Source: an uncultured Lachnospiraceae bacterium (GTDB taxonomy: Bacteria > Bacillota > Clostridia > Lachnospirales > Lachnospiraceae). Taken from it: 64,000 bases of DNA. Below the pieces are notes generated by a model. It was given only the letters and a program-made list of their open reading frames with translations, had not been told where the DNA came from and did no database searches. How positions within the stretch are numbered: position 1 is the stretch's first letter; each line of letters begins with the position of its first letter. Position numbers and translations under genes: made by a program. The stretch spans positions 124,001 through 188,000 of the forward strand of contig CANRMI010000003.1 of NCBI GenBank assembly GCA_947631685.1, written 5' to 3'. Of the stretch, positions 9,936 through 34,375 are shown in pieces.

Positions 9936-10946
9936 TCAGGACAGGGTTCTGAAAACCTTTTCCAGAAATTCCTGCTTCGCTTTCTCCTGGGCTGCCAAAA
10001 TCTCCAGCTTCTCCTGGTTCCGCTCCGGTATCCAGGCCTTGCCGGAATTGTAATAAAAATTCGCTATCTTCCAGAACTTTTCCGGATAGGCCAGCCGGTA
10101 ATACAGCTCTACAAAGGAACGGGCCGAAATGGGCCGGATGCTGCCGTAGGCCTCCAGCAGACCATCTCCTAACGCCGGGGACCAGTCGTTTTTCTCCAGC
10201 AGCTTTCGCATAAAAAAGCACAGATCCCTGATACCGTCGTCCATAATACAGCGTTCAAAATTAATAACGGCAAATTCTTCTCCCGTCCGGATGATATTGT
10301 GGTACTGGTAATCTCCATGGCAGATGCTCCCGCACTCCCGGATATACTCCAGATCATCGGCCCGGGTAAAGTCCCGCCAGGCCTCCGTCACCTCTGCCGC
10401 CTGCTCCAGATAATAGTCATATTCCCGCAAAAGCGCGGATTCAAACAAGGATTTCTGGCTCTTTTTGCGCAGATAGCGCCACACCTTGCGCAGCTCCTTG
10501 TTGTGCTTTTCGTATTCCCTGTCTATCAAAAAAGGCGTAAGCCCGAAAGTCTCCACTTCTTTAGGCGCAAGACGCAGCGCATTGTGGAGCTTTGCCAGCG
10601 TTCTGACTGCCTCCCTGCATTCTTTCTCCTGGGAAAGATCGCATTCCCTGTTATCAAAATACGTTTTCAGGAAATACCTCCTGCCGTCCCCGTCTTCTAC
10701 CCAGAGTGCGCCTTCCCTCGTGGGGATAAGCAGCTCCGCCTGCACACTGCCGGAAGCGGATACTTTCTTTAAAAGGCAGTCCTGCAGCAGCAGCTTTTCC
10801 GGATTGCCGGTATATTCCTTAAAAATAAAGCAGCCCTTTTCCGTGTCGCAAAGTATGGCTCCCCGCCCTTTTCTTGTACGGATCACATCTATGTCATATT
10901 GGCTTAACAGACCAACCGCCCTGTCGTTCAATTCGATTCCTCCCAT
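9936..10946 (-). CDS. CotS-family spore coat protein (kinase-like fold)
   Basis: 336 residues with the aminoglycoside-phosphotransferase/choline-kinase fold of the CotS family: an N-terminal lobe (GAILCDTEKGCFIFKEYTG), the catalytic-loop motif HGDYQYHN at 210-217 and the next motif INFERC at 228-233. In active kinases the latter is usually I-D-F with a metal-binding Asp; here Asn replaces it, which suggests loss of activity or a structural role. CotS proteins are deposited in the inner spore coat. It lies 64 nt downstream of cca and ahead of the PEGA lipoprotein gene. Confidence 0.85.
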   Translation of the reverse strand: MGGIELNDRAVGLLSQYDIDVIRTRKGRGAILCDTEKGCFIFKEYTGNPEKLLLQDCLLKKVSASGSVQAELLIPTREGALWVEDGDGRRYFLKTYFDNRECDLSQEKECREAVRTLAKLHNALRLAPKEVETFGLTPFLIDREYEKHNKELRKVWRYLRKKSQKSLFESALLREYDYYLEQAAEVTEAWRDFTRADDLEYIRECGSICHGDYQYHNIIRTGEEFAVINFERCIMDDGIRDLCFFMRKLLEKNDWSPALGDGLLEAYGSIRPISARSFVELYYRLAYPEKFWKIANFYYNSGKAWIPERNQEKLEILAAQEKAKQEFLEKVFRTLS

Positions 10947-20154: not shown

Positions 20155-20186
20155 GTTCACAACAAAACAAGGTCTGTTTACAACAA
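20155..20186 (+). promoter_or_regulatory. Direct-repeat pair upstream of the two-component operon (LytTR-type operator)
   Basis: GTTCACAACAA (20155-20165) and GTTTACAACAA (20176-20186) are spaced exactly 21 nt start to start, two helical turns. LytTR regulators such as AgrA bind 9-bp direct repeats with this spacing. The second copy lies just upstream of where the -35 element would be, the position of an activator. The same pair occurs again at 22407-22438. Confidence 0.75.
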
Positions 20187-20210
20187 CCCTTATCAGCCGC
20201 AGGCTCTTTT

Positions 20211-20221
20211 TACGATATAAT
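20211..20221 (+). promoter_or_regulatory. -10 region of the two-component operon
   Basis: TACGATATAAT contains a consensus TATAAT at 20216-20221. The sequence 17 nt upstream (TCAGCC) is a poor -35, as expected for a promoter that needs an activator. The spacing from the repeat pair is nearly equal to that at the second site. Confidence 0.6.
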
Positions 20222-20277
20222 CATATAATAAAAATGTTGTTTTAGCGAAAGAATTTTGATACGAGGATGTGAAAACG

Positions 20278-21063
20278 ATGGAAAATCTGATAGGCAAGGT
20301 GACAGACAAAACGGGCGGCGCACCGATTTTGGCGCAGGATACCCTCCGTGTGGCAATCTGCGACGACGAGAAGCCGATCCGGGATATGCTGGAGGAAAAA
20401 GTAAAGGAAATGTTCCCGTCTGCTGTGACGAAAACCTTTTCTTCCGGGAAGGAACTGCTGAAAAGCAAAACAGAAGCGGACATTTTGTTTCTGGACATTC
20501 AGATGCCGGGAATGGACGGGATGGAGACGGCAAAGCTGCTTCGCAGGGAACATACGGACACGCTGATCCTGTTTGTCACGGCGGCTCCGGAATATGTATT
20601 TGACGCCTTTGACGTAGGTGCGTTCCATTATCTGGTCAAGCCGCTGTCGGATGAAAAGTTTTGCGAAGTGTTCGGAAAAGCGGTATGGGAAGTTAAAAAC
20701 CGAAAGCGCAAAGCCGGAAAAGAGGACGAGGAATATATGATGATCCAGTCGGGAGGCGTCCATACAAAAATACTTCTGAAAGATATAATTTATGCGGAGG
20801 TGTTCAACCGCAAGGTCATCATCCATACCGTAAACGGCGATACGGAATATTACGGGAAGCTGACCGATCTGGAGAAAAAAGCCGGGGAGGATTTTTTCCG
20901 GACGCACAGGTCTTATCTGATTCATTTTAAATTTGTGCAGAAATATGATGCGGAAACCATTGTCATGCAAAAGGGTACGGCGCTGATTGCCAAGCAGAAT
21001 TATCCCGAATTTGTCAGACAGTATTTGAAATATAACCAGAGGAAAGGCAGGGAGATCAAGTGA
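20278..21063 (+). CDS. LytTR-family response regulator (AgrA/LytR-like)
   Basis: 261 residues from ATG 20278, chosen over an in-frame GTG at 20269 because ACGAGG then has proper spacing. A receiver domain (about 23-140) has the acidic pair CDDE, phospho-acceptor Asp73 in LFLDIQMPGMDGME and the conserved Lys in HYLVKPL. A LytTR DNA-binding domain follows (about 155-255: IIYAEVFNRKVIIHT, FFRTHRSYLIHFKFV). LytTR regulators bind tandem direct repeats. An N-terminal extension of about 22 residues precedes the receiver. Its stop overlaps the kinase start by 4 nt. Confidence 0.93.
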   Translation: MENLIGKVTDKTGGAPILAQDTLRVAICDDEKPIRDMLEEKVKEMFPSAVTKTFSSGKELLKSKTEADILFLDIQMPGMDGMETAKLLRREHTDTLILFVTAAPEYVFDAFDVGAFHYLVKPLSDEKFCEVFGKAVWEVKNRKRKAGKEDEEYMMIQSGGVHTKILLKDIIYAEVFNRKVIIHTVNGDTEYYGKLTDLEKKAGEDFFRTHRSYLIHFKFVQKYDAETIVMQKGTALIAKQNYPEFVRQYLKYNQRKGREIK

Positions 21064-22403
21064 GCCCGATAGAATTATGTTGGAATATAACCTCTTATCT
21101 GTTCACGCTTATACAGCTTGCCGCTGCGGGCGTCTGTCTTGGAATCTTCGTATCGCCCTATCTGCGAAGCAGGAGCAAGGCAGTCAAAACCGGCGCCGTA
21201 TATGGCGTTGTCATGGTCATCTTATATGTCATGCCGCCCCAAATTGACAATATACTTGCCTATTTCATCGGCACACTGGCGGCGTTTCTCGTGATGTACG
21301 CGGAGGACAGGCACAATATCAATCAAAAAATATTTTTATCCGTCACGTTCTTTTCAATGCGCTGGCTCTCTGCTTCCATGTTAGGGATTTTAGATCACTA
21401 TTTGGACCGCATCCTTCTGGCTCCGGAAATTATAGCACGAATCTGGCTGAATTATGGCGTATATGTAGTGATACGCTTTGTGGCTATTGTGCTTAGGACG
21501 TTGAATCTGCTTTTAGCCATTTGGGCAATTAACAAAGCCTATAAAGGAAAAAACAGATACATGGAAAAGCGCGAACTTTTGCTGCTTTCCGTACCGTCGC
21601 TCTCCGGTGTGATTGGTTATGCGGTATACCATTTTTATCAATTCAGAAATGAAATGCCGGAATTTTATGATTTGCTGTGCTTTTTCTACTATCTGATTTC
21701 CATACTGGCAGTTCTTGCTATTGTCGTAATCTTTCAACGATGGAAAACATCGCAGGAAGAACAGGCGGGGCAGCAGCTTTTGGAAAGCCAGATCGACAAT
21801 ATCAAGGCGCACCTCGAAGGAGTGGAAAAGCTGTACGGGGATCTTCACTCCCTGCGCCATGACATGGGGAACCATATTCAGATGATCGAGCGCCTGATGG
21901 CGGCGGGAAACAGCGCCGAGGCATCCGCCTATCTGGAAAGGCTGAAAGGCGAATGGCAGGAGCTTACGCCTGAGATCCGGACGGGAAACCCGGTCGTAGA
22001 CATGATCCTTTTGGAAAAGAAAAAAGAAGCCGAGGCGAGGGGCATCCGGTTTGAATGTGATTTCTGCTATCCAAACGGAACAGGGCTGGATGCTTTTGAT
22101 GTCAGCGTCCTGCTATATAATGCGCTGAACAACTGCCTGGAATCAGTAAACGGGGAAGATCCCTATATCAAGGTTCAGGCATTCCGCAAAAACAGTGTCT
22201 TTATGCTGATCATCAGCAACAGCTTTACGGGCAGGCTCCAGATGGATGCGGCGGAGGGACTTCCCTTTACGACAAAAAAGTGTGCCGGGCATGGGATCGG
22301 CTTAAAAAATATGCGCCGGGTGGCAAGAAAGTATATGGGCGATCTGTCCTTTGAGCAGGACAAAGATGCGGTAACGGTAGGAATCATGCTCCAGATTGCT
22401 TAG
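21060..22403 (+). CDS. GHKL sensor histidine kinase (AgrC-like)
   Basis: 447 residues with a GTG start overlapping the regulator's stop (GTGA). Six or seven hydrophobic segments occupy residues about 12-226, then a dimerisation region with LHSLRHDMGNHIQ, where His267 is the likely phospho-acceptor. The ATPase part has the N-box LLYNALNNCLE (351-361) and G-box GHGIGLKNM (410-418). This is the layout of AgrC/ComD-type kinases that sense peptides or other extracellular signals. No agrB/agrD pair is present in the window, so the signal is unknown. The kinase ends 3 nt before the second repeat pair. Confidence 0.92.
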   Translation: MSPIELCWNITSYLFTLIQLAAAGVCLGIFVSPYLRSRSKAVKTGAVYGVVMVILYVMPPQIDNILAYFIGTLAAFLVMYAEDRHNINQKIFLSVTFFSMRWLSASMLGILDHYLDRILLAPEIIARIWLNYGVYVVIRFVAIVLRTLNLLLAIWAINKAYKGKNRYMEKRELLLLSVPSLSGVIGYAVYHFYQFRNEMPEFYDLLCFFYYLISILAVLAIVVIFQRWKTSQEEQAGQQLLESQIDNIKAHLEGVEKLYGDLHSLRHDMGNHIQMIERLMAAGNSAEASAYLERLKGEWQELTPEIRTGNPVVDMILLEKKKEAEARGIRFECDFCYPNGTGLDAFDVSVLLYNALNNCLESVNGEDPYIKVQAFRKNSVFMLIISNSFTGRLQMDAAEGLPFTTKKCAGHGIGLKNMRRVARKYMGDLSFEQDKDAVTVGIMLQIA

Positions 22404-22406
22404 GGG

Positions 22407-22438
22407 CTTCACAACAAAAGAAGGGCGGTTCACAACAA
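22407..22438 (+). promoter_or_regulatory. Second direct-repeat pair, upstream of the target operon (LytTR-type operator)
   Basis: CTTCACAACAA (22407-22417) and GTTCACAACAA (22428-22438) match the pair at 20155-20186 and have the same 21-nt period. The region TTACGATAAACT (-10-like, 22463-22474) follows at almost the same distance as TTACGATATAAT in the first promoter. This links the two-component system to the operon that begins at 22493. Confidence 0.75.
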
Positions 22439-22492
22439 GTCTGTTGATTCCGGTAAATTTTCTTACGATAAACTTTACAGAAGGATGCCATT

Positions 22493-22588
22493 ATGGCAAG
22501 TGGCAGCAATTGCAGCAGCAGTTGCTGCAGCAATGGGAAAACAGAAACGGATTTCAAAGCAATAAAATTCAAGGAGGATCTATCATGA
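22493..22588 (+). CDS. 31-residue Cys-rich peptide, first ORF of the LytTR-controlled operon
   Basis: ATG 22493 has AGAAGG eight nt upstream, an ideal ribosome site. The frame encodes 31 residues starting MASGSNCSSSCCSNGKTETD and ends in a TGA that overlaps the next gene's ATG (ATGA, 22585-22588), a sign of translational coupling. Three Cys and many Ser lie in the first 13 residues, and the C-terminal half is charged. There is no hydrophobic signal sequence. It could be a small effector, a signal precursor, a metal-binding peptide or a translated leader that controls the next gene. No family is recognised. Support comes from start, spacing and coupling only. Confidence 0.5.
   Translation: MASGSNCSSSCCSNGKTETDFKAIKFKEDLS
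22544..22577 (+). promoter_or_regulatory. Conserved leader element, copy 1
   Basis: GAAACGGATTTC at 22544-22555, then AAGGAGG at 22571-22577, 30 nt before ATG 22585. The same 12-mer or a one-base variant precedes three more genes in this window (26923, 27755, and 34279 on the minus strand). Confidence 0.7.
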
Positions 22589-23391: not shown

Positions 23392-23481
23392 CGAGGAGGG
23401 AGATTTATGTCAAGAATAAATGATTTCAGCGATTTTAGTGACTATGCAAGTAAATATAATACTAAGTTTGATTAAGTCACC

Positions 23482-23504
23482 AACCACCACTTCAAGTGGT
23501 GGTT
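23482..23504. repeat. Transposon end hairpin (transposase 3' side)
   Basis: Perfect 11-bp inverted repeat AACCACCACTT-C-AAGTGGTGGTT. In IS200-type elements such imperfect or perfect subterminal hairpins are recognised by TnpA as single-stranded DNA. Confidence 0.85.
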
Positions 23505-23581
23505 TGATTTAGCCCCCCTAGGGGCCTTTATTACTTGCACGCCTGAAAGGCGGGTGCTGCAAGCTTTGTTACTAGCCGCCG

Positions 23582-24010
23582 CTAGAAAGCGGCTCCCTCA
23601 CTATCTTCTTTTCTTGATTCTTCTGATTGCTCTGTTATATATTTCTTGATGGCTTCTTCTGTCACATTGCCTATTGTTGCGACATAGTAGCCCCTTGCCC
23701 AGAATGCTTTGTTCCACTTATTCTGCAAGTTCGGATGCCTGTCATATATCATCAGAGTACTTTTCCCCTTTAGATATCCCATGAAAGTCGAGATGCTCAT
23801 CTTTGGCGGTATGCTTACACAAAGGTGTACATGATCTATGCACACAGCCCCTTCGATTATCTCAACGCCTTTATATCTGCATAACGTCTGAATGATTTCA
23901 CGTACATCGGCTCTTACCTGACCATATAAACTCTTTTTCCTATATTTGGGAATGAAAACTATATGGTACTGGCATTTCCATGTAGTGTGTGATAAACTGT
24001 TCTTGTCCAT
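23582..24010 (-). CDS. tnpA: IS200/IS605 family transposase TnpA (Y1)
   Basis: 142 residues, full length for the group. The HUH motif His60-Val-His62 in AVCIDHVHLCVSIPP binds the metal, and the catalytic Tyr124 lies in EAIKKYITEQ. The enzyme excises and integrates the element as single-stranded circles. The frame is intact, so the copy may be active. It is transcribed against the interrupted gene. Confidence 0.95.
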   Translation of the reverse strand: MDKNSLSHTTWKCQYHIVFIPKYRKKSLYGQVRADVREIIQTLCRYKGVEIIEGAVCIDHVHLCVSIPPKMSISTFMGYLKGKSTLMIYDRHPNLQNKWNKAFWARGYYVATIGNVTEEAIKKYITEQSEESRKEDSEGAAF

Positions 24011-24112
24011 GTGGACGCCTCCTATTCTTTGAGTTTGGCTTGCAACACCTTACTCATTGTATCATAGGAGGCTTTTTATTGTTGTCTTTAACGCCCTTGC
24101 TTACTCTATTCT

Positions 24113-24129
24113 CCCCAGCATAGCTGGGG
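24113..24129. repeat. Transposon end hairpin (transposase 5' side)
   Basis: CCCCAGC-ATA-GCTGGGG, a 7-bp stem with a 3-nt loop, about 100 nt upstream of the tnpA start. Confidence 0.75.
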
Positions 24130-25111
24130 GATTAGGGTTTTCATTCAGCGTTATTTGGCGGCGGCACCCCTTATATGGATAGCGGCATAAGCGGTTTCAA
24201 TGTGTCGGACTATGCCATGATCAAAAACGGGAGCTATGGAAAACTGATGAAAGCATACTATACCAAACAGGATGCGGACAGCTTATCCCGGACAGGTGAT
24301 TCCAAAAAATCGCTTACCCTGATGCGTTCCAGTGCAGATTCCCTGAAAAAATCGGCGGAAACACTAAACAATGCATCTCTCTGGGAGAAAAAGAAGCTGA
24401 AGAAAAAGAACGAGGAAACCGGAGAAGAAACCGAAGTCTGGGATTACGATTGGGATACTATTACGAAAGCAGTCAAGACCTTTGTTGACGATTATAATTC
24501 CGTGGTAAAACAGGCCGGCAACTCCGACACCAGGAATGTACTGCGGAATGCTTCATGGATGACGGAAATGACGGAGAAAGCCGGCAAACTCCTTTTAAAG
24601 GTGGGAATTACTATCGGAGCCGGCAATAAGCTGGAATTTGACGAGGAAACATTGAAGAAAACAACAACATTGGGGAAAAGCAGCGTCGAGATGGATAATA
24701 TCTCTACGTTGAAAACCCTGTTTACAGGTTATGGCTCCTTTGCGGATAAGGTCTCGCAAAAAGCGCAGGGTATTTCAAGGGCTTCAGCCAATGCAGCTGC
24801 CAAAGCAAGCGCGCTTGGATCGGCATATACCAAAAATGGCACTTATTCCGATACTTTGTCCAAACTGTTTTCCAGTACGATCGACGAAAAAGTAGGCGAT
24901 AAAGACAAGAATAAATCGTGGTGGGAAAAAGAACTGGAGAAAAAGGAACAGGAGAAAAGAGAAGCTTTTAAACCGATAACCGATACAAAAAAAGACGAGG
25001 ATAATGAATCCTGACAGTCAGCATTTTTTAGGAGATGGTATTTGCCTTGCTTTCTTATACCGCATTGATTCGAGTATATACAAATGCGGCATACCATTAA
25101 AACAACAAACA

Positions 25112-25196: not shown

Positions 25197-25607
25197 GTGG
25201 AAAAAGAAACAATCCCAAGCCAGAGCGAATGGCTGATTATGGAGATTTTCTGGGCGGAAAACAGGACGATGACAGCGAGGGAGATCATTAAAAAAATGCA
25301 GGAAACCTCGGATATGTCGCCCCGCATGGTGCGTGTCCTCCTTAACCGCTTATGGCAGAAAGGCGTGTTAAGCTATACCGTGGACGAACACGATACAAGG
25401 GTGTACCACTATACCGCAGAAAAATCCAGAGAGGACTGCCAGAAAGAGAAAAGCCGGAGATTTGTGGACAGTTATTTCGGGGGCAGCGAAAAAAACGCAA
25501 TGGCGGCGCTGATCCAGAGTACAGAGCTGACCGAAGAACAGTACCGGGAACTGGAAGAAATTCTGCAACAGTGCAAGCCGTCTGCAAAGGATAATACGAA
25601 ACAATGA
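25197..25607 (+). CDS. BlaI/MecI/CopY-family transcriptional repressor
   Basis: 136 residues from GTG 25197, with AGAGGAG eight nt upstream (an in-frame TTG at 25176 is less likely). The winged-helix part reads PSQSEWLIMEIFWAENRTMTAREIIKKM and MVRVLLNRLWQKGVLSYTVDEHDTRVYHYTA, typical of BlaI/MecI. The C-terminal helix contains the dimerisation region and the area where the BlaR1 protease cuts. Its stop overlaps the metallopeptidase ATG by 4 nt (ATGA). It would repress this pair and perhaps the downstream genes until inactivated. Confidence 0.92.
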   Translation: MEKETIPSQSEWLIMEIFWAENRTMTAREIIKKMQETSDMSPRMVRVLLNRLWQKGVLSYTVDEHDTRVYHYTAEKSREDCQKEKSRRFVDSYFGGSEKNAMAALIQSTELTEEQYRELEEILQQCKPSAKDNTKQ

Positions 25608-26842
25608 CAGCGGGGGAATGGGCAGAACACATGACAGAGCTTTGGGACTTCTGCTCTCTTTACTACACCATACAGCTTGTGCGGTGTGCGCTGGTTTCCT
25701 CTGCGGTGTTTGCAGTCGTTTTTCTCCTGCGGAAAACGCTGTTCAAAGACAAGATATTTCTAAAAGGCGCATTGTGGAGCCTGTTTGTTCCGGTGCTGTT
25801 TGCCGGGAAAATGAAATTCTTTTATGAAAATGCGGCGGGCAGCTTTGTGTTTTCCTCATGGACAGGGCTTTTGAACCGTCACAGATGGATGAACTGGCTG
25901 TATTTTGGCGTGATGTTCCTGTATGCTATCCGGCTGCTTGGCAAAAGGAGAAAGCTGCACAGGCTTGTCGCAGGTATGGAACGGCGGCAAGTGGACGGCG
26001 CATCTGTTTTTGTGACAGAGCTTCCCGTTACGCCATACACGATTGGAGTGCTTTGCCCCAAGATCATTCTGCCGCAGGCAATACTGGAACAATACAGCGA
26101 AAAGGAGCTTCGGGCGATCCTGCTCCACGAAAAAGAACATATTCGGTCAGGGCACCTTTTGTTCTATTTTTTGTGGGATATTCTTAGGGTGCTGTTATGG
26201 ATCAATCCGCTGTTTGCCATCGGCACAAAGCAATTTCGTGAGGATATGGAGGAAATATGCGACTGGATGACCATCCGGAAAAACGGGGCGGGCGCATATG
26301 AATACGGACGGCTTTTGTTAAAGACCATGCGGCTTTTGCAGGCGGAAAGCAAGGACTTTAACCTCTATGCCACATTCGCAGGCGATCAGGAATACCGAAG
26401 CATCCGGCAGAGAGTGACAAGGATCGCAGGCTATAAGCCCTATAAGCGGTCTGCGGCATTTGGCGTATTTGCAGCCGCCATCCTGCTTGCAATCGTATCG
26501 GCAACAGGAATAAGCGCAGGCTCTTATGGCAGATACAATGAGAATGACAGTATGCTTGTCTATGGATTTGACGGAAAGGTCGTGACCTTTTCAGATACAG
26601 GAAACAGTGCTGCCCTGCATCAGATGATTTCCTATGATGACAGCTATGTGTATGTGGACAGGAAGGCATTTGAAGCATACCTGCGGGAGCATGGAACAGG
26701 GGAAGATGCCTATATTGTGTTCGGCGGTTTTTATAAACTCCCCGGTATGGGCGGGTATGGTTATTCCTGCTATTATGAAGCGGACGCAGGGGAACAGACG
26801 GCAAAAATCCCATATGATAATCAGGACAGCGACTGTGGGTAA
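25604..26842 (+). CDS. BlaR1-like M56 membrane metallopeptidase without a penicillin-binding domain
   Basis: 412 residues. Membrane helices are at about 24-42, 52-68, 97-113, 184-202 and 286-306. The zinc protease motif HEKEH is at 175-179 (LLHEKEHIRSGH), with EEICD downstream. In BlaR1/MecR1 the outer C-terminal domain is a beta-lactam sensor of about 250 residues. Here only about 100 residues follow the last helix (VYGFDGKVVTFSDTGNS, EAYLREHGTGEDAYIVFGG), and no SxxK penicillin-binding motif is seen. It probably senses another extracellular or envelope signal and inactivates the adjacent BlaI-type repressor. Confidence 0.88.
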   Translation: MTAGEWAEHMTELWDFCSLYYTIQLVRCALVSSAVFAVVFLLRKTLFKDKIFLKGALWSLFVPVLFAGKMKFFYENAAGSFVFSSWTGLLNRHRWMNWLYFGVMFLYAIRLLGKRRKLHRLVAGMERRQVDGASVFVTELPVTPYTIGVLCPKIILPQAILEQYSEKELRAILLHEKEHIRSGHLLFYFLWDILRVLLWINPLFAIGTKQFREDMEEICDWMTIRKNGAGAYEYGRLLLKTMRLLQAESKDFNLYATFAGDQEYRSIRQRVTRIAGYKPYKRSAAFGVFAAAILLAIVSATGISAGSYGRYNENDSMLVYGFDGKVVTFSDTGNSAALHQMISYDDSYVYVDRKAFEAYLREHGTGEDAYIVFGGFYKLPGMGGYGYSCYYEADAGEQTAKIPYDNQDSDCG

Positions 26843-26879: not shown

Positions 26880-26915
26880 GAAACGGATTTCAAATCATTT
26901 TAAAGATCAAGGAGG
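26880..26915 (+). promoter_or_regulatory. Conserved leader element, copy 2
   Basis: GAAACGGATTTC at 26880-26891, followed by AAAGATCAAGGAGGAT, 32 nt before ATG 26923. The tail AAAGATCAAGGAGGAT is also found in copy 4 on the minus strand. Confidence 0.7.
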
Positions 26916-26922
26916 ATTTACT

Positions 26923-27693
26923 ATGGCAATGGAGATTAACGGGAATCTTCTTGACTATTCCGCCAACAAGCAGAATTACAACGCATATGAGAATACCTAT
27001 GCGGCACAAAAACAACAGGGAAAGGCAAAACAGAAAGCTGCTTCCAAACAGGAAATATCGGAAATGGCGGCTGCACAGAAAAATTCCGGCGCAGAGAGCA
27101 GCAAGGCAAAAAGCACAGCGGAGTATATGAAGGGATTGGAAAAGCTCGCGCCAAGTGCAGAATTTCGCCTGGGGAAAGGATGTGCCACCGATAAAAGCGG
27201 CATAACGCTGACAATCCATCCGGATATTTTGAAAAAGATGCAGAATGATCCTGCAAAGGAAAAGAAAATGAAAGAGCTAATTGGCGGCGTGGAGTCTATG
27301 CTTCAACTATGTGAGAGAATGAACAAAGCCACAGGGCGCACCACCGTATTTCAGCACTGTTACATTGACGCGAATGGAAATTTTACCCAATATGTGCAGA
27401 CAATCAGAAAGGACGAATTAAATGAAAAACTCCGTAAGGAAGCAGAGGAAAATGCCAAAAAGCAGATAGAAAAAACCCGCGAAAAGGCCCGTAAAAAGGC
27501 GGAGCAGCTTACGGAACAGTTAGAAGAAAAAGCCGAAGAAGCAAAAAAGACGGAAGACAGCCAGGATCAGGGCAGTAAGGTTGTTGTCAAACCGGATACT
27601 GCACTGGATGCGGCAAAAGAAGAGGCACAGAAACAGCCCGATAAAGTAAAAAATCCGGTTGTGGCAGGTAATAATTTTGATATGCAGATATAA
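26923..27693 (+). CDS. Signal-peptide-less protein of unknown function with C-terminal coiled coil
   Basis: 256 residues starting MAMEINGNLLDYSANKQNYN. The first 60 residues are polar and Gln/Ala/Lys-rich. A compact domain follows (about 65-160: ITLTIHPDILKKMQNDPAKEK, MLQLCERMNKATGRTTVFQH, YIDANGNFTQYVQTIRK). The last third is a charged coiled coil (ENAKKQIEKTREKARKKAEQ). No membrane helix or signal sequence. I think it belongs to an uncharacterised clostridial family (possibly DUF6033-like, not verified). It has leader copy 2 upstream and follows the BlaR1-like gene after 80 nt. Confidence 0.75.
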   Translation: MAMEINGNLLDYSANKQNYNAYENTYAAQKQQGKAKQKAASKQEISEMAAAQKNSGAESSKAKSTAEYMKGLEKLAPSAEFRLGKGCATDKSGITLTIHPDILKKMQNDPAKEKKMKELIGGVESMLQLCERMNKATGRTTVFQHCYIDANGNFTQYVQTIRKDELNEKLRKEAEENAKKQIEKTREKARKKAEQLTEQLEEKAEEAKKTEDSQDQGSKVVVKPDTALDAAKEEAQKQPDKVKNPVVAGNNFDMQI

Positions 27694-27713: not shown

Positions 27714-27746
27714 GAAACGGATTTCAAGTTATTAAGCACAAGGAGG
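27714..27746 (+). promoter_or_regulatory. Conserved leader element, copy 3
   Basis: GGGAAACGGATTTC (12-mer core at 27714-27725), then AAGGAGG at 27740-27746, 30 nt before ATG 27755. Confidence 0.7.
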
Positions 27747-27754
27747 GACAGACT

Positions 27755-28585
27755 ATGAGGATCAATAGAAATTTATTTAATTTTATGAACAGCAGTTTCT
27801 TTAACCGTTCTTCTATGGTTTCAAAGCTGCTTGGAAGCAGGAACGCTGGGAATGTGAATATACCGGACAGGAGCCGTGTCGATAAGCATTCCCAAACTTA
27901 TATGAAGGACGGCGTTTTTTACCAAAAAGGAAACCGTACAGAATCGAAGCTTTATACAAGGTGGGGAACTTGGACAGACGCAAGACCGAAACAGAATCCG
28001 AACCGAAGAAACGCATTCCGTCCACTTCGTGAAGACCTGAAAAAGGTGCATTTCGACGCTGCGTTGGGAATCATCCAGCCCAAGGAGATGTCCGTGAAGG
28101 ACAACGAGGTGCGCTTTGACGACAACTCATGTTATCAATTTACGGGGAAAGACGGGAAGTCGCATACGGTGCTTTCGGCGAGCGGGCTCCTAAGCGCGGA
28201 TGTTTTTGGAAGAAAAGGACCCATTGACGAGGAAGCGGCGGAGTATGCTGATTTTTGGCAGCGACTGGCGCATAGCGTTGGACCTCACGCAAAGTACAGT
28301 CAGGCTGAAATCAGGAATAAACTGGCAGAAGCGGGCATACAAAACGGATTTTTCACGGTATCGGTGGGCAATCATTCCCATACCTATTTCCTTTCCCAAG
28401 AGGAAGATGCAGTTGCGGTTCGTACAAAGGAAGCATATGACAAACGGTACAATGCGCTGGTCAGCGGAGAGGCATTTGAGTCTGGTAACTACCAGCCTGG
28501 GCAGACGGTGTCAGTCGGCGGCAAAGATTATGTCCTGAATGAAAACAAAGGAATTGACATTGCGTATGGGGCAGAAATCTATTAA
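27755..28585 (+). CDS. Signal-peptide-less protein of unknown function, flagellin-like N-terminus
   Basis: 276 residues starting MRINRNLFNFMNSSFFNRSS, close in style to the M-R-I-N-x-N start of flagellins, but with no flagellin domain after it. Residues about 50-85 are basic and aromatic (DGVFYQKGNRTESKLYTRWG). The rest is a mixed globular domain with QFTGKDGKSHTVLSASG, AKYSQAEIRNKLAEAGIQNG and a Tyr-rich end. No Cys-rich motif, signal peptide or membrane helix. It follows the previous gene by 61 nt with leader copy 3 between them, and a hairpin follows its stop. Function unknown. Confidence 0.75.
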   Translation: MRINRNLFNFMNSSFFNRSSMVSKLLGSRNAGNVNIPDRSRVDKHSQTYMKDGVFYQKGNRTESKLYTRWGTWTDARPKQNPNRRNAFRPLREDLKKVHFDAALGIIQPKEMSVKDNEVRFDDNSCYQFTGKDGKSHTVLSASGLLSADVFGRKGPIDEEAAEYADFWQRLAHSVGPHAKYSQAEIRNKLAEAGIQNGFFTVSVGNHSHTYFLSQEEDAVAVRTKEAYDKRYNALVSGEAFESGNYQPGQTVSVGGKDYVLNENKGIDIAYGAEIY

Positions 28586-33478: not shown

Positions 33479-34279
33479 CTACAGCTGTTCGTCCACCTGC
33501 GCACCTTTTATGTCTTCTTCTATCAGCTTCATTTTGTCCAGCATGTCGTTTATTTCCCGTTTTACATCATCCATGGAAGAAGCCTCTTTGACAAGCTCAA
33601 CAAACTCTTCCTGCTCCTTACGCTCCTCCCTGGCCTTTTCCAGTTTCTCCTCCTGCTCTTCCTTCTTTTCGGCCGTTTCCTCGGCTTCCTCGACCTTCTT
33701 CTCCTGCTCTTCGTCGACATGGTCTTTCGCTTCCTGCCACAACATGCCTATGACATCCTGACTGGCCGATTCCAGAATTCCGTCCGCCGTCTCCTGCGCC
33801 TTTTCCATGGGATTGCTTTTGAGCCGGTTTATTTTGGAAGAAGTAAGGGAGTGGCCGATCCCTTCTATCTGCGCCTCCAGCATATTCTGCTGTGACCGAT
33901 ACTGCCTCAGGGATTCTTCCCTTTCGGCACGCATCTCCTCCGTCATTTCTTCTTCGGGCATATTTTCATAGGAGGATATAAGCCCCTGCAGCTCATTCTT
34001 CTGAGCGGAAAGCTCTTTCATCTCTTCCCGGCTCTCATCCATTCCCGCATCTATTTTCTTATCCGCGGCAAAGGTATCCCCCACTATTTTAAGCGCTTTT
34101 TTGCGGGCAAGCTGTTTCTTCATCAGGATATTGTCCTCCTGCCCGTTCTTCATCATAGCTCCTGCGTTTATGCTTATGCTTTTCCCGCCGGCGCTTTTCT
34201 TAAGCTGCGCTTCTTCCCCGTGGCGTAAGCCCTTTTCATCCTGCCCTGCGTAGATCGCCGTATTCCTGTTTACCTGCAT
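33479..34279 (-). CDS. Glu/Lys-rich coiled-coil protein, related in layout to the 20-28 kb island
   Basis: 266 residues starting MQVNRNTAIYAGQDEKG. Nearly the whole protein from about residue 75 is helical and charged (SREEMKELSAQKNELQGLIS, EEETAEKKEEQEEKLEKARE). No signal peptide, membrane helix or Cys. Its layout (short N-terminus with V-N-R-N, Met/Gln/Glu coiled coil of about 60 residues, acidic tail) parallels the protein at 22585-23391, and it has leader copy 4, so it is likely a detached member of the same group. It lies 97 nt after the DHH gene. Function unknown. Confidence 0.7.
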   Translation of the reverse strand: MQVNRNTAIYAGQDEKGLRHGEEAQLKKSAGGKSISINAGAMMKNGQEDNILMKKQLARKKALKIVGDTFAADKKIDAGMDESREEMKELSAQKNELQGLISSYENMPEEEMTEEMRAEREESLRQYRSQQNMLEAQIEGIGHSLTSSKINRLKSNPMEKAQETADGILESASQDVIGMLWQEAKDHVDEEQEKKVEEAEETAEKKEEQEEKLEKAREERKEQEEFVELVKEASSMDDVKREINDMLDKMKLIEEDIKGAQVDEQL

Positions 34280-34319: not shown

Positions 34320-34375
34320 TTCCGCCATGATATTTCATGACCTTTATTACTATATCGGCTTTGAAACGCGTCTCC

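Follow-up and report, generated by a model that had tools for sequence, protein, structure and literature searches.

The closest described sites of LytTR response regulators, those of AgrA (P2/P3), HdrR/BrsR and VirR, consist of two short direct repeats directly upstream of a promoter. AgrA binds direct repeats just 5' of the promoters it activates (PMC4227749), the VirR boxes of Clostridium perfringens lie just 5' of the −35 element with helical phasing (PMC2838878), and the LytTR regulatory system (LRS) operons of Streptococcus mutans, such as that of HdrR, are autoregulated and carry 9-nucleotide (nt) repeats that are mostly 12 bp apart and 4–11 bp from the −35 element (PMC6193735). Here we describe a LytTR two-component system of an uncultured Lachnospiraceae bacterium, encoded in a 64,000-nt stretch of contig CANRMI010000003.1 (positions 124,001 to 188,000; hereafter the window). 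Two repeat pairs at this locus share the layout of the known sites and differ from them in the repeat word (TTYACAACA), in a σ28-like target promoter (P2) and in target genes encoding FlxA-like and FliD-like proteins. From sequence comparison we put the probability at roughly two in three that this system gates a small flagellar side-operon controlled by σ28 and CsrA. The two pairs flank the regulator and kinase genes, in window coordinates, as follows.

20155..20186, + strand: direct-repeat pair of promoter P1, GTTCACAACAA – 10 nt – GTTTACAACAA, period 21; predicted LytTR regulator site
20211..20221, + strand: P1 composite −10, TACGATATAAT, an overlap of σ28-type CGATAT and σA-type TATAAT
20281..21063, + strand: response regulator with REC and LytTR domains (Pfam PF00072, 1.9e-19; PF04397, 2.1e-15)
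21060..22403, + strand: sensor histidine kinase with a GHKL ATPase domain (PF14501, 3.8e-21)
22407..22438, + strand: direct-repeat pair of promoter P2, CTTCACAACAA – 10 nt – GTTCACAACAA, period 21
22444..22448, + strand: P2 −35-like TTGAT, of the form TT[GAT]A, kept in position in relatives
22464..22471, + strand: P2 σ28-type −10, TACGATAA; compare TCCGATAT of flagellin promoters

The initial annotation had described two pairs of one word with an exact 21-nt period, each followed at nearly equal distance by a −10 without a good −35. Direct reading confirmed both pairs and the period: pair 1 consists of GTTCACAACAA at 20155–20165 and GTTTACAACAA at 20176–20186, and pair 2 of CTTCACAACAA at 22407–22417 and GTTCACAACAA at 22428–22438. 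The word is the same in three of the four copies, whereas the first copy of pair 2 starts with C (one mismatch); over the whole site, P1 and P2 are identical at 30/40 bases. The −10-like elements TACGATATAAT and TACGATAA lie 24 and 25 nt past the second repeat of their respective pairs, in line with the proposed spacing. A good −35 is lacking after pair 1; pair 2 is followed by the TTGAT listed above. The layout, with 9-nt repeats separated by a 12-nt gap directly 5' of the −35, is that of LytTR sites.

Scanning the window with up to three mismatches allowed returned two matches, compared to none across 100 dinucleotide shuffles. Genome-wide (2.34 Mb, 24 contigs), the two pairs of the window were the sole matches at period 21 with up to three mismatches, and a reversed-pattern control gave 0; pair 1 alone was recovered at periods of 20–22 when no mismatch was permitted. 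The word CACAACAA has five matches in the window, three of them within the pairs and two single, at 10498 (−) and 36335 (+), in agreement with the earlier statement that it does not occur in this role elsewhere in the window.

Both Pfam domains of the regulator scored above cut-off, giving it the REC plus LytTR architecture. The sites had been called AgrA-type, which holds for their geometry and for the regulator family; the regulator itself reached 40.4 of the 400 bits required by the NCBIfam AgrA equivalog NF046049 and falls outside that group. Neither agrB nor agrD was found among the 10 proteins given to Pfam, and no search aimed at AgrB was made. The kinase gene overlaps the regulator gene by 4 nt, and the N-terminal half of its product is hydrophobic as read by eye.

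Conservation was assessed in the best 80 of 365 loci from a scan of species genomes (loci are numbered L, genomes G), with a pair called conserved if at most 3 of 18 positions were off at a period of 20–22. For regulators of at least 56% identity, a class delimited once its result table had been inspected, all 24 loci with a left flank had the upstream pair, and 21 of the 24 with enough right flank had one past the kinase. All other matches in the 80 loci amounted to 16 in 1.61 million strand-bases. Among periods of 20–22 the best was 21 in 24/24 P2 sites and in 23/27 P1 sites, the remaining four P1 sites having 22. Both pairs were present in Roseburia inulinivorans, R. faecis and Butyribacter intestini, and with 2–3 mismatches in Eubacterium plexicaudatum. 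The comparison thus establishes the sites and their spacing.

Presence of the second pair follows the presence of its predicted target. Within the class of at least 56% identity, the second pair was absent from L005–L007, which are the three loci without FlxA downstream, and FlxA was found in the following operon of 20/20 decidable loci with the second pair (L014 ends too early); Fisher's exact test gave 5.6e-4, with the caveat that the loci are not mutually independent. The genomes of L006 and L007 (G104 and G105) had no FlxA match. In 101 genomes of the genus, 29 pairs with at most one mismatch were found in 21 genomes, compared to five for the reversed pattern; 17 of the 29 adjoin a close regulator orthologue and 12 lie elsewhere. 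The own-genome and genus searches refute a random placement of the pairs; the simplest interpretation is that they serve as sites for this regulator. Because both pairs are kept with close regulators and the second is absent without the FlxA operon, the comparison supports the predicted autoregulation and direct activation of the neighbouring operon that the initial annotation had put forward.

The late promoters of Lachnospiraceae recognized by σ28 (FliA/SigD) have the −10 CCGATA/MCGATAa, and the Butyrivibrio consensus is TAAA (N16–17) MCGATAa (PMC3720852). From 20 flagellin upstream regions of the genomes studied here, 12 were selected, and most of these have promoters of the form T(T/A)AAG – ~15 nt – NCCGATAT. 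The promoters that follow the repeat pairs were compared to these after identical −10 windows had been merged into distinct promoters, with plain letter shuffles of the short windows as controls. The P2 set comprised 24 loci and 13 distinct promoters and left out the distant L035, L036, L037, L038, L039, L041 and L043, which were present in the matrix scan below; L024 and L026 were left out of the P1 set.

At P2, CCGATA with at most one mismatch occurred in 12/13 distinct promoters (shuffle mean 0.69, maximum 4), five of them exact. TATAAT was found exactly in 0/13 and with at most one mismatch in 2/13, below the shuffle mean of 4.86. At P1, where the −10 typically reads (C/A)CGATATAAT with CCGATA overlapping TATAAT, 15/21 distinct promoters had CCGATA with at most one mismatch (shuffle mean 1.09, maximum 5) and 16/21 had an exact TATAAT (shuffle mean 1.39). 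The sequence TT[GAT]A stood 5–7 nt past the second repeat in 12/13 distinct P2 promoters (shuffle mean 1.76, maximum 7) and in 0/21 at P1. In the window, P2 has TTGA 16 nt from TACGATAA, whereas the σ28 reference has TAAA at 15–17 nt. P2 differs from σ28 late promoters, then, in its TTGA-like −35 and in the repeat pair beside it, and resembles them in its −10 and in the presence of FliA in the genome.

A σ28 matrix was trained on the 12 of 20 flagellin upstream regions picked by their −10 pattern and is therefore not blind to the −10. In all 28 P1 rows its best match lay 22–27 nt past the repeat, and in 20/24 P2 rows 25–26 nt past it; the match exceeded the 95th percentile of shuffles in 17/28 P1 and 10/24 P2 rows, compared to 0/28 and 1/24 on the antisense strand. 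FliA scored above cut-off in 28/30 genomes searched (E 5.2e-79 in the own genome), with matches below cut-off not counted, as these can be other sigma factors, and flagellin was present in 30/30. Rather than plain σA promoters lacking a −35, we read P2 as combining a −10 that is of the σ28 type with a positioned TT[GAT]A −35, and P1 as a likely σ28/σA composite.

The predicted target genes and their leader hairpins are as follows.

22493..22588, + strand: open reading frame (ORF) of 31 amino acids (aa), coding status uncertain; Cys-rich here, stop overlapping the FlxA start (ATGA)
22544..22556, + strand: GAAACGGATTTC(A) leader hairpin before FlxA, CsrA-type with an ANGGA loop
22585..23391, + strand: FlxA-like protein (PF14282, 1.3e-20)
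23408..23476, + strand: first codons of a FliD-like gene, interrupted by an IS200-type insertion
24175..25014, + strand: rest of the FliD-like gene (PF07195 FliD_C, 1.3e-6)
26880..26892, + strand: second copy of the leader hairpin, before the DUF6033 gene, one of only three exact genome copies
26923..27693, + strand: DUF6033 protein (PF19498, 4.4e-7)
27714..27726, + strand: third, exact copy of the leader hairpin, before gene 27749
27749..28585, + strand: protein without a Pfam match; relatives recur in this gene set (the module) in L019 and L021–L023, and a weaker one in L016

The operon had been taken to start at 22493; the 31-aa ORF does come first there, and the first firm gene is the FlxA-like one at 22585. 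The hairpin sequence GAAACGGATTTCA has exactly three copies in the genome, all at this locus. They precede the FlxA-like, DUF6033 and 27749 genes, 28–30 nt 5' of the respective start codon, and each is followed by AAGGAGG. Seven copies with one mismatch occur elsewhere in the genome, one of which (L153) stands ahead of another DUF6033-like gene. In relatives the stems are identical or compensated (GTAAACGGATTTAC, TAACAAGGATGTTA, ATAGGAAACGGATTTCCTAT, GGTATGGATACC and others), and stem pairs 1–3 each use several pair types when sites with at least two outer pairs are counted. ANGGAT was present in 38/52 module leaders, which were hand-picked from earlier tables, some already known to hold the hairpin. 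At least three further outer pairs surrounded 29/30 distinct module ANGGAT sites, compared to 107/2177 sites elsewhere. In flagellin upstream regions, 11/20 of which hold ANGGAT, 9/12 sites had at least three further pairs. Such hairpins were found at 47/516 ORF starts, a few of them outside the module (e.g. L022 1438, L039 86 and L058 10678).

The module hairpins fit the CsrA consensus, and with an ANGGA hairpin loop close to the Shine-Dalgarno sequence the leaders can be classed as CsrA-type. CsrA genes were found in 18/20 genomes, including the own genome with two matches. In Bacillus subtilis, CsrA covers the Shine-Dalgarno sequence of the flagellin (hag) message (PMC6529632). The ANGGAT hairpins and AAGGAGG of the flagellin and module leaders resemble this CsrA–FliW/hag control, which is predicted here, from sequence, to extend to the non-flagellin FlxA, FliD and DUF6033 genes. 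One CsrA-family match of the own genome (C15:20291–20440) lies ~0.3 kb 5' of a flagellin gene (C15:20727), and relatives such as G107, G113 and G114 likewise have CsrA copies next to flagellins.

In the mechanism that we propose, the products of 20281 (regulator) and 21060 (kinase) make up a LytTR two-component system, and the activated regulator would bind each repeat pair as a dimer, beside the promoter. At P1 it would drive its own operon from the composite −10, read by σA (TATAAT) and perhaps by σ28 (CGATAT), with positive feedback. At P2 it would help RNA polymerase containing σ28 (FliA) at a σ28 promoter with a weakened −35, having TTGA in place of TAAA/TTAA. Since P2 would combine this weak −35 with help from the regulator, the FlxA-like/FliD-like operon would need the late flagellar state and the kinase signal together. 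From the flagellin-like ANGGAT hairpins ~30 nt 5' of the start codons we infer that CsrA holds translation of these messages until it is freed. To our knowledge, σ28 promoters are usually described as needing no activator.

Several observations weigh against this proposal. Among 55 loci with a regulator below 56% identity, the upstream pair was found in nine and the second pair in seven; L033 and L047 hold candidates at four and six mismatches only, and the rumen loci L035–L037 have a diverged, TTCACGT-like word (five mismatches) at the same spacing. FlxA lies 1 kb past the kinase without a pair in L026, and the genome of L005 (G103) has a FlxA module (L189) beside another kinase with no pair and an imperfect hairpin. 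Five FlxA copies away from the main locus, L189 among them, were examined: in favour of the proposal, L195 and L197 retain the pair together with CCGATA, each next to a further kinase gene; L196 and L199 have no pair nearby. An adjoining pair with at most one mismatch was found in 12/19 genus genomes with a close regulator (E ≤ 1e-69). At the promoters, some P2 read GCCGAAA, 14/24 P2 rows did not exceed the 95th percentile of the matrix scan and 4/24 had the best match elsewhere; 14/52 module leaders lack ANGGAT. Of the own genome's flagellin regions, 1/3 shows the σ28 pattern. G117, the genome of L021, which has P2, had no FliA match above cut-off, and in G126 (E. plexicaudatum) FliA was found as two adjacent pieces only. 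Flagellin is common in the genus anyway (88/101 genomes; 19/19 with a close regulator vs 69/82 without, p 0.055); this association is weak, and flagellin presence was dropped as proof of σ28 use. Lastly, the FliD-like gene of the window is itself broken by an insertion sequence (IS) element.

G011 also bears on the choice of sigma factor. This genome has FliA and no flagellin match, and three pairs precede other genes there, at least two of the three with σA-like −10s (TATAAT/TATGAT-like), again counting against the proposal; the repeat word is therefore not tied to σ28, and it may serve another LytTR regulon in G011. The pairs L171, L181 and L185 precede an ATP-binding cassette (ABC) transporter, a lipoprotein-like gene and another gene, respectively, and the pair at the genome's own regulator is diverged, with CCGATAATAT after it. 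The use of G011 as a natural experiment without flagellin was abandoned, as its FliA gene is present, its regulator pair diverged and its other −10s mostly σA-like.

If σA alone served both promoters, P1 and P2 would be weak, LytTR-activated σA promoters with odd −10s, and the likeness to σ28 promoters would be coincidental. The G011 pairs and the TATAAT kept in most P1 promoters fit this explanation, as do the TACGAT of the window, which matches TATAAT at 4/6 positions, and the suboptimal spacers of AgrA-activated promoters (PMC4227749). We nevertheless consider it unlikely: P2 shows TATAAT less often than its shuffles yet keeps CCGATA together with a positioned TT[GAT]A, the module genes carry flagellin-like hairpins, and two related genes, described below, have plain σ28-like promoters. 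A further explanation is a regulator that binds the pairs and represses, or competes there with polymerase: sequence cannot tell the direction of control, and repression by AgrA is possible where its site lies downstream of the promoter (PMC4227749). Both pairs are upstream of the promoter here, at the near-constant distance seen in the matrix scan, and this is the activating position for AgrA, VirR and HdrR (PMC4227749, PMC2838878, PMC6193735), which makes repression quite improbable.

That the repeats are coincidental, or serve another protein, is harder still to sustain. The word is A/T-rich and 12 of the 29 genus matches lie away from a close regulator, but many Lachnospiraceae retain the pairs at both positions, with a period of 21–22 nt, and 17 matches adjoin a regulator orthologue in genomes where the reversed control gave five; we give this explanation very little credence. 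Activation by the LytTR regulator at a σ28-type P2 is the reading that we retain.

The site geometry is textbook LytTR, and its pairing with σ28 looks new. The LytTR pair, the σ28 promoter and the CsrA-type hairpin are each known singly; among the open-licence PMC articles listed, by title and abstract opening, none described the three stacked on this operon, its gene set or the σ28 pairing. The E. coli flxA gene is FliA-dependent, with no obvious motility role (PMC4183435). Pfam FlxA had no match in 14 control genomes, and the link to E. coli through the shared FlxA name is therefore weak. The FliD_C match and the weak cap-like folds suggest that the products may be exported by the flagellum. 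In Foldseek searches with an AlphaFold model of modest quality (pLDDT 68.6), ranks 1–8 for the FliD-like protein were flagellar cap or filament-assembly complexes, weak matches (E 0.011–0.30, TM 0.31–0.35), none below E 0.001. A search of PDB sequences with the FliD-like profile found FliD alone, at E 0.33, and one with the FlxA profile found no match.

More tentatively, and at somewhat less than even odds, this may be a widespread, undescribed design of gut Lachnospiraceae, in which a LytTR system has co-opted both the flagellar sigma factor and the checkpoint exerted by CsrA, so that the FlxA/FliD/DUF6033 set, probably exported by the flagellum as an alternative cap or as secreted passengers, is released only if an external signal arrives while a filament is growing. 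Under the proposed mechanism, a signal from outside may determine whether these proteins join the flagellar programme of gut bacteria; the locus also gives a lead on what FlxA-like and DUF6033 proteins do, and may be an example of an activator that works with σ28. Because flagellin preparations of related species raised interleukin-8 secretion by human cell lines (PMC3720852), regulated changes of the flagellum could matter for host contact.

The IS200-type element spans ~23477–24150 (transposase 23582–24010, − strand; Y1_Tnp, 2e-41) and is inserted ~22 codons into the FliD-like gene, whose start is uninterrupted in relatives, e.g. L004. Genes for a BlaI-type repressor and an M56 (BlaR1-like) peptidase lie between the FliD-like and DUF6033 genes (25200–26842), and in L062, from the same metagenome-assembled genome as L003, an M56 end likewise precedes DUF6033. 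The 31-aa ORF was considered as a Cys-rich signal peptide and set aside: ORFs starting MASGS are listed in L003, L004, L021 and L022, without the Cys run, and not in L008–L018. The Cys-rich stretch, with the palindromic TTGCTGCAGCAA, was seen in this genome only.

The two related genes with plain σ28-like promoters lie outside the operon. An unclassified gene at 33479–34279 (−) has TTAAG-N15-GCCGATAT at 34352–34359 (−) without a pair and is also preceded by a GGGAAACGAATTTCCC hairpin; its relatives stand directly 5' of the regulator in the distant L038, L039, L043, L048, L049, L051, L052 and L057. The DUF6033-like paralogue L153 (own genome, C15:15847), ~5 kb from a flagellin match, has TAAAG-N15-GCCGATAT, no pair, and its one-mismatch copy of the hairpin.

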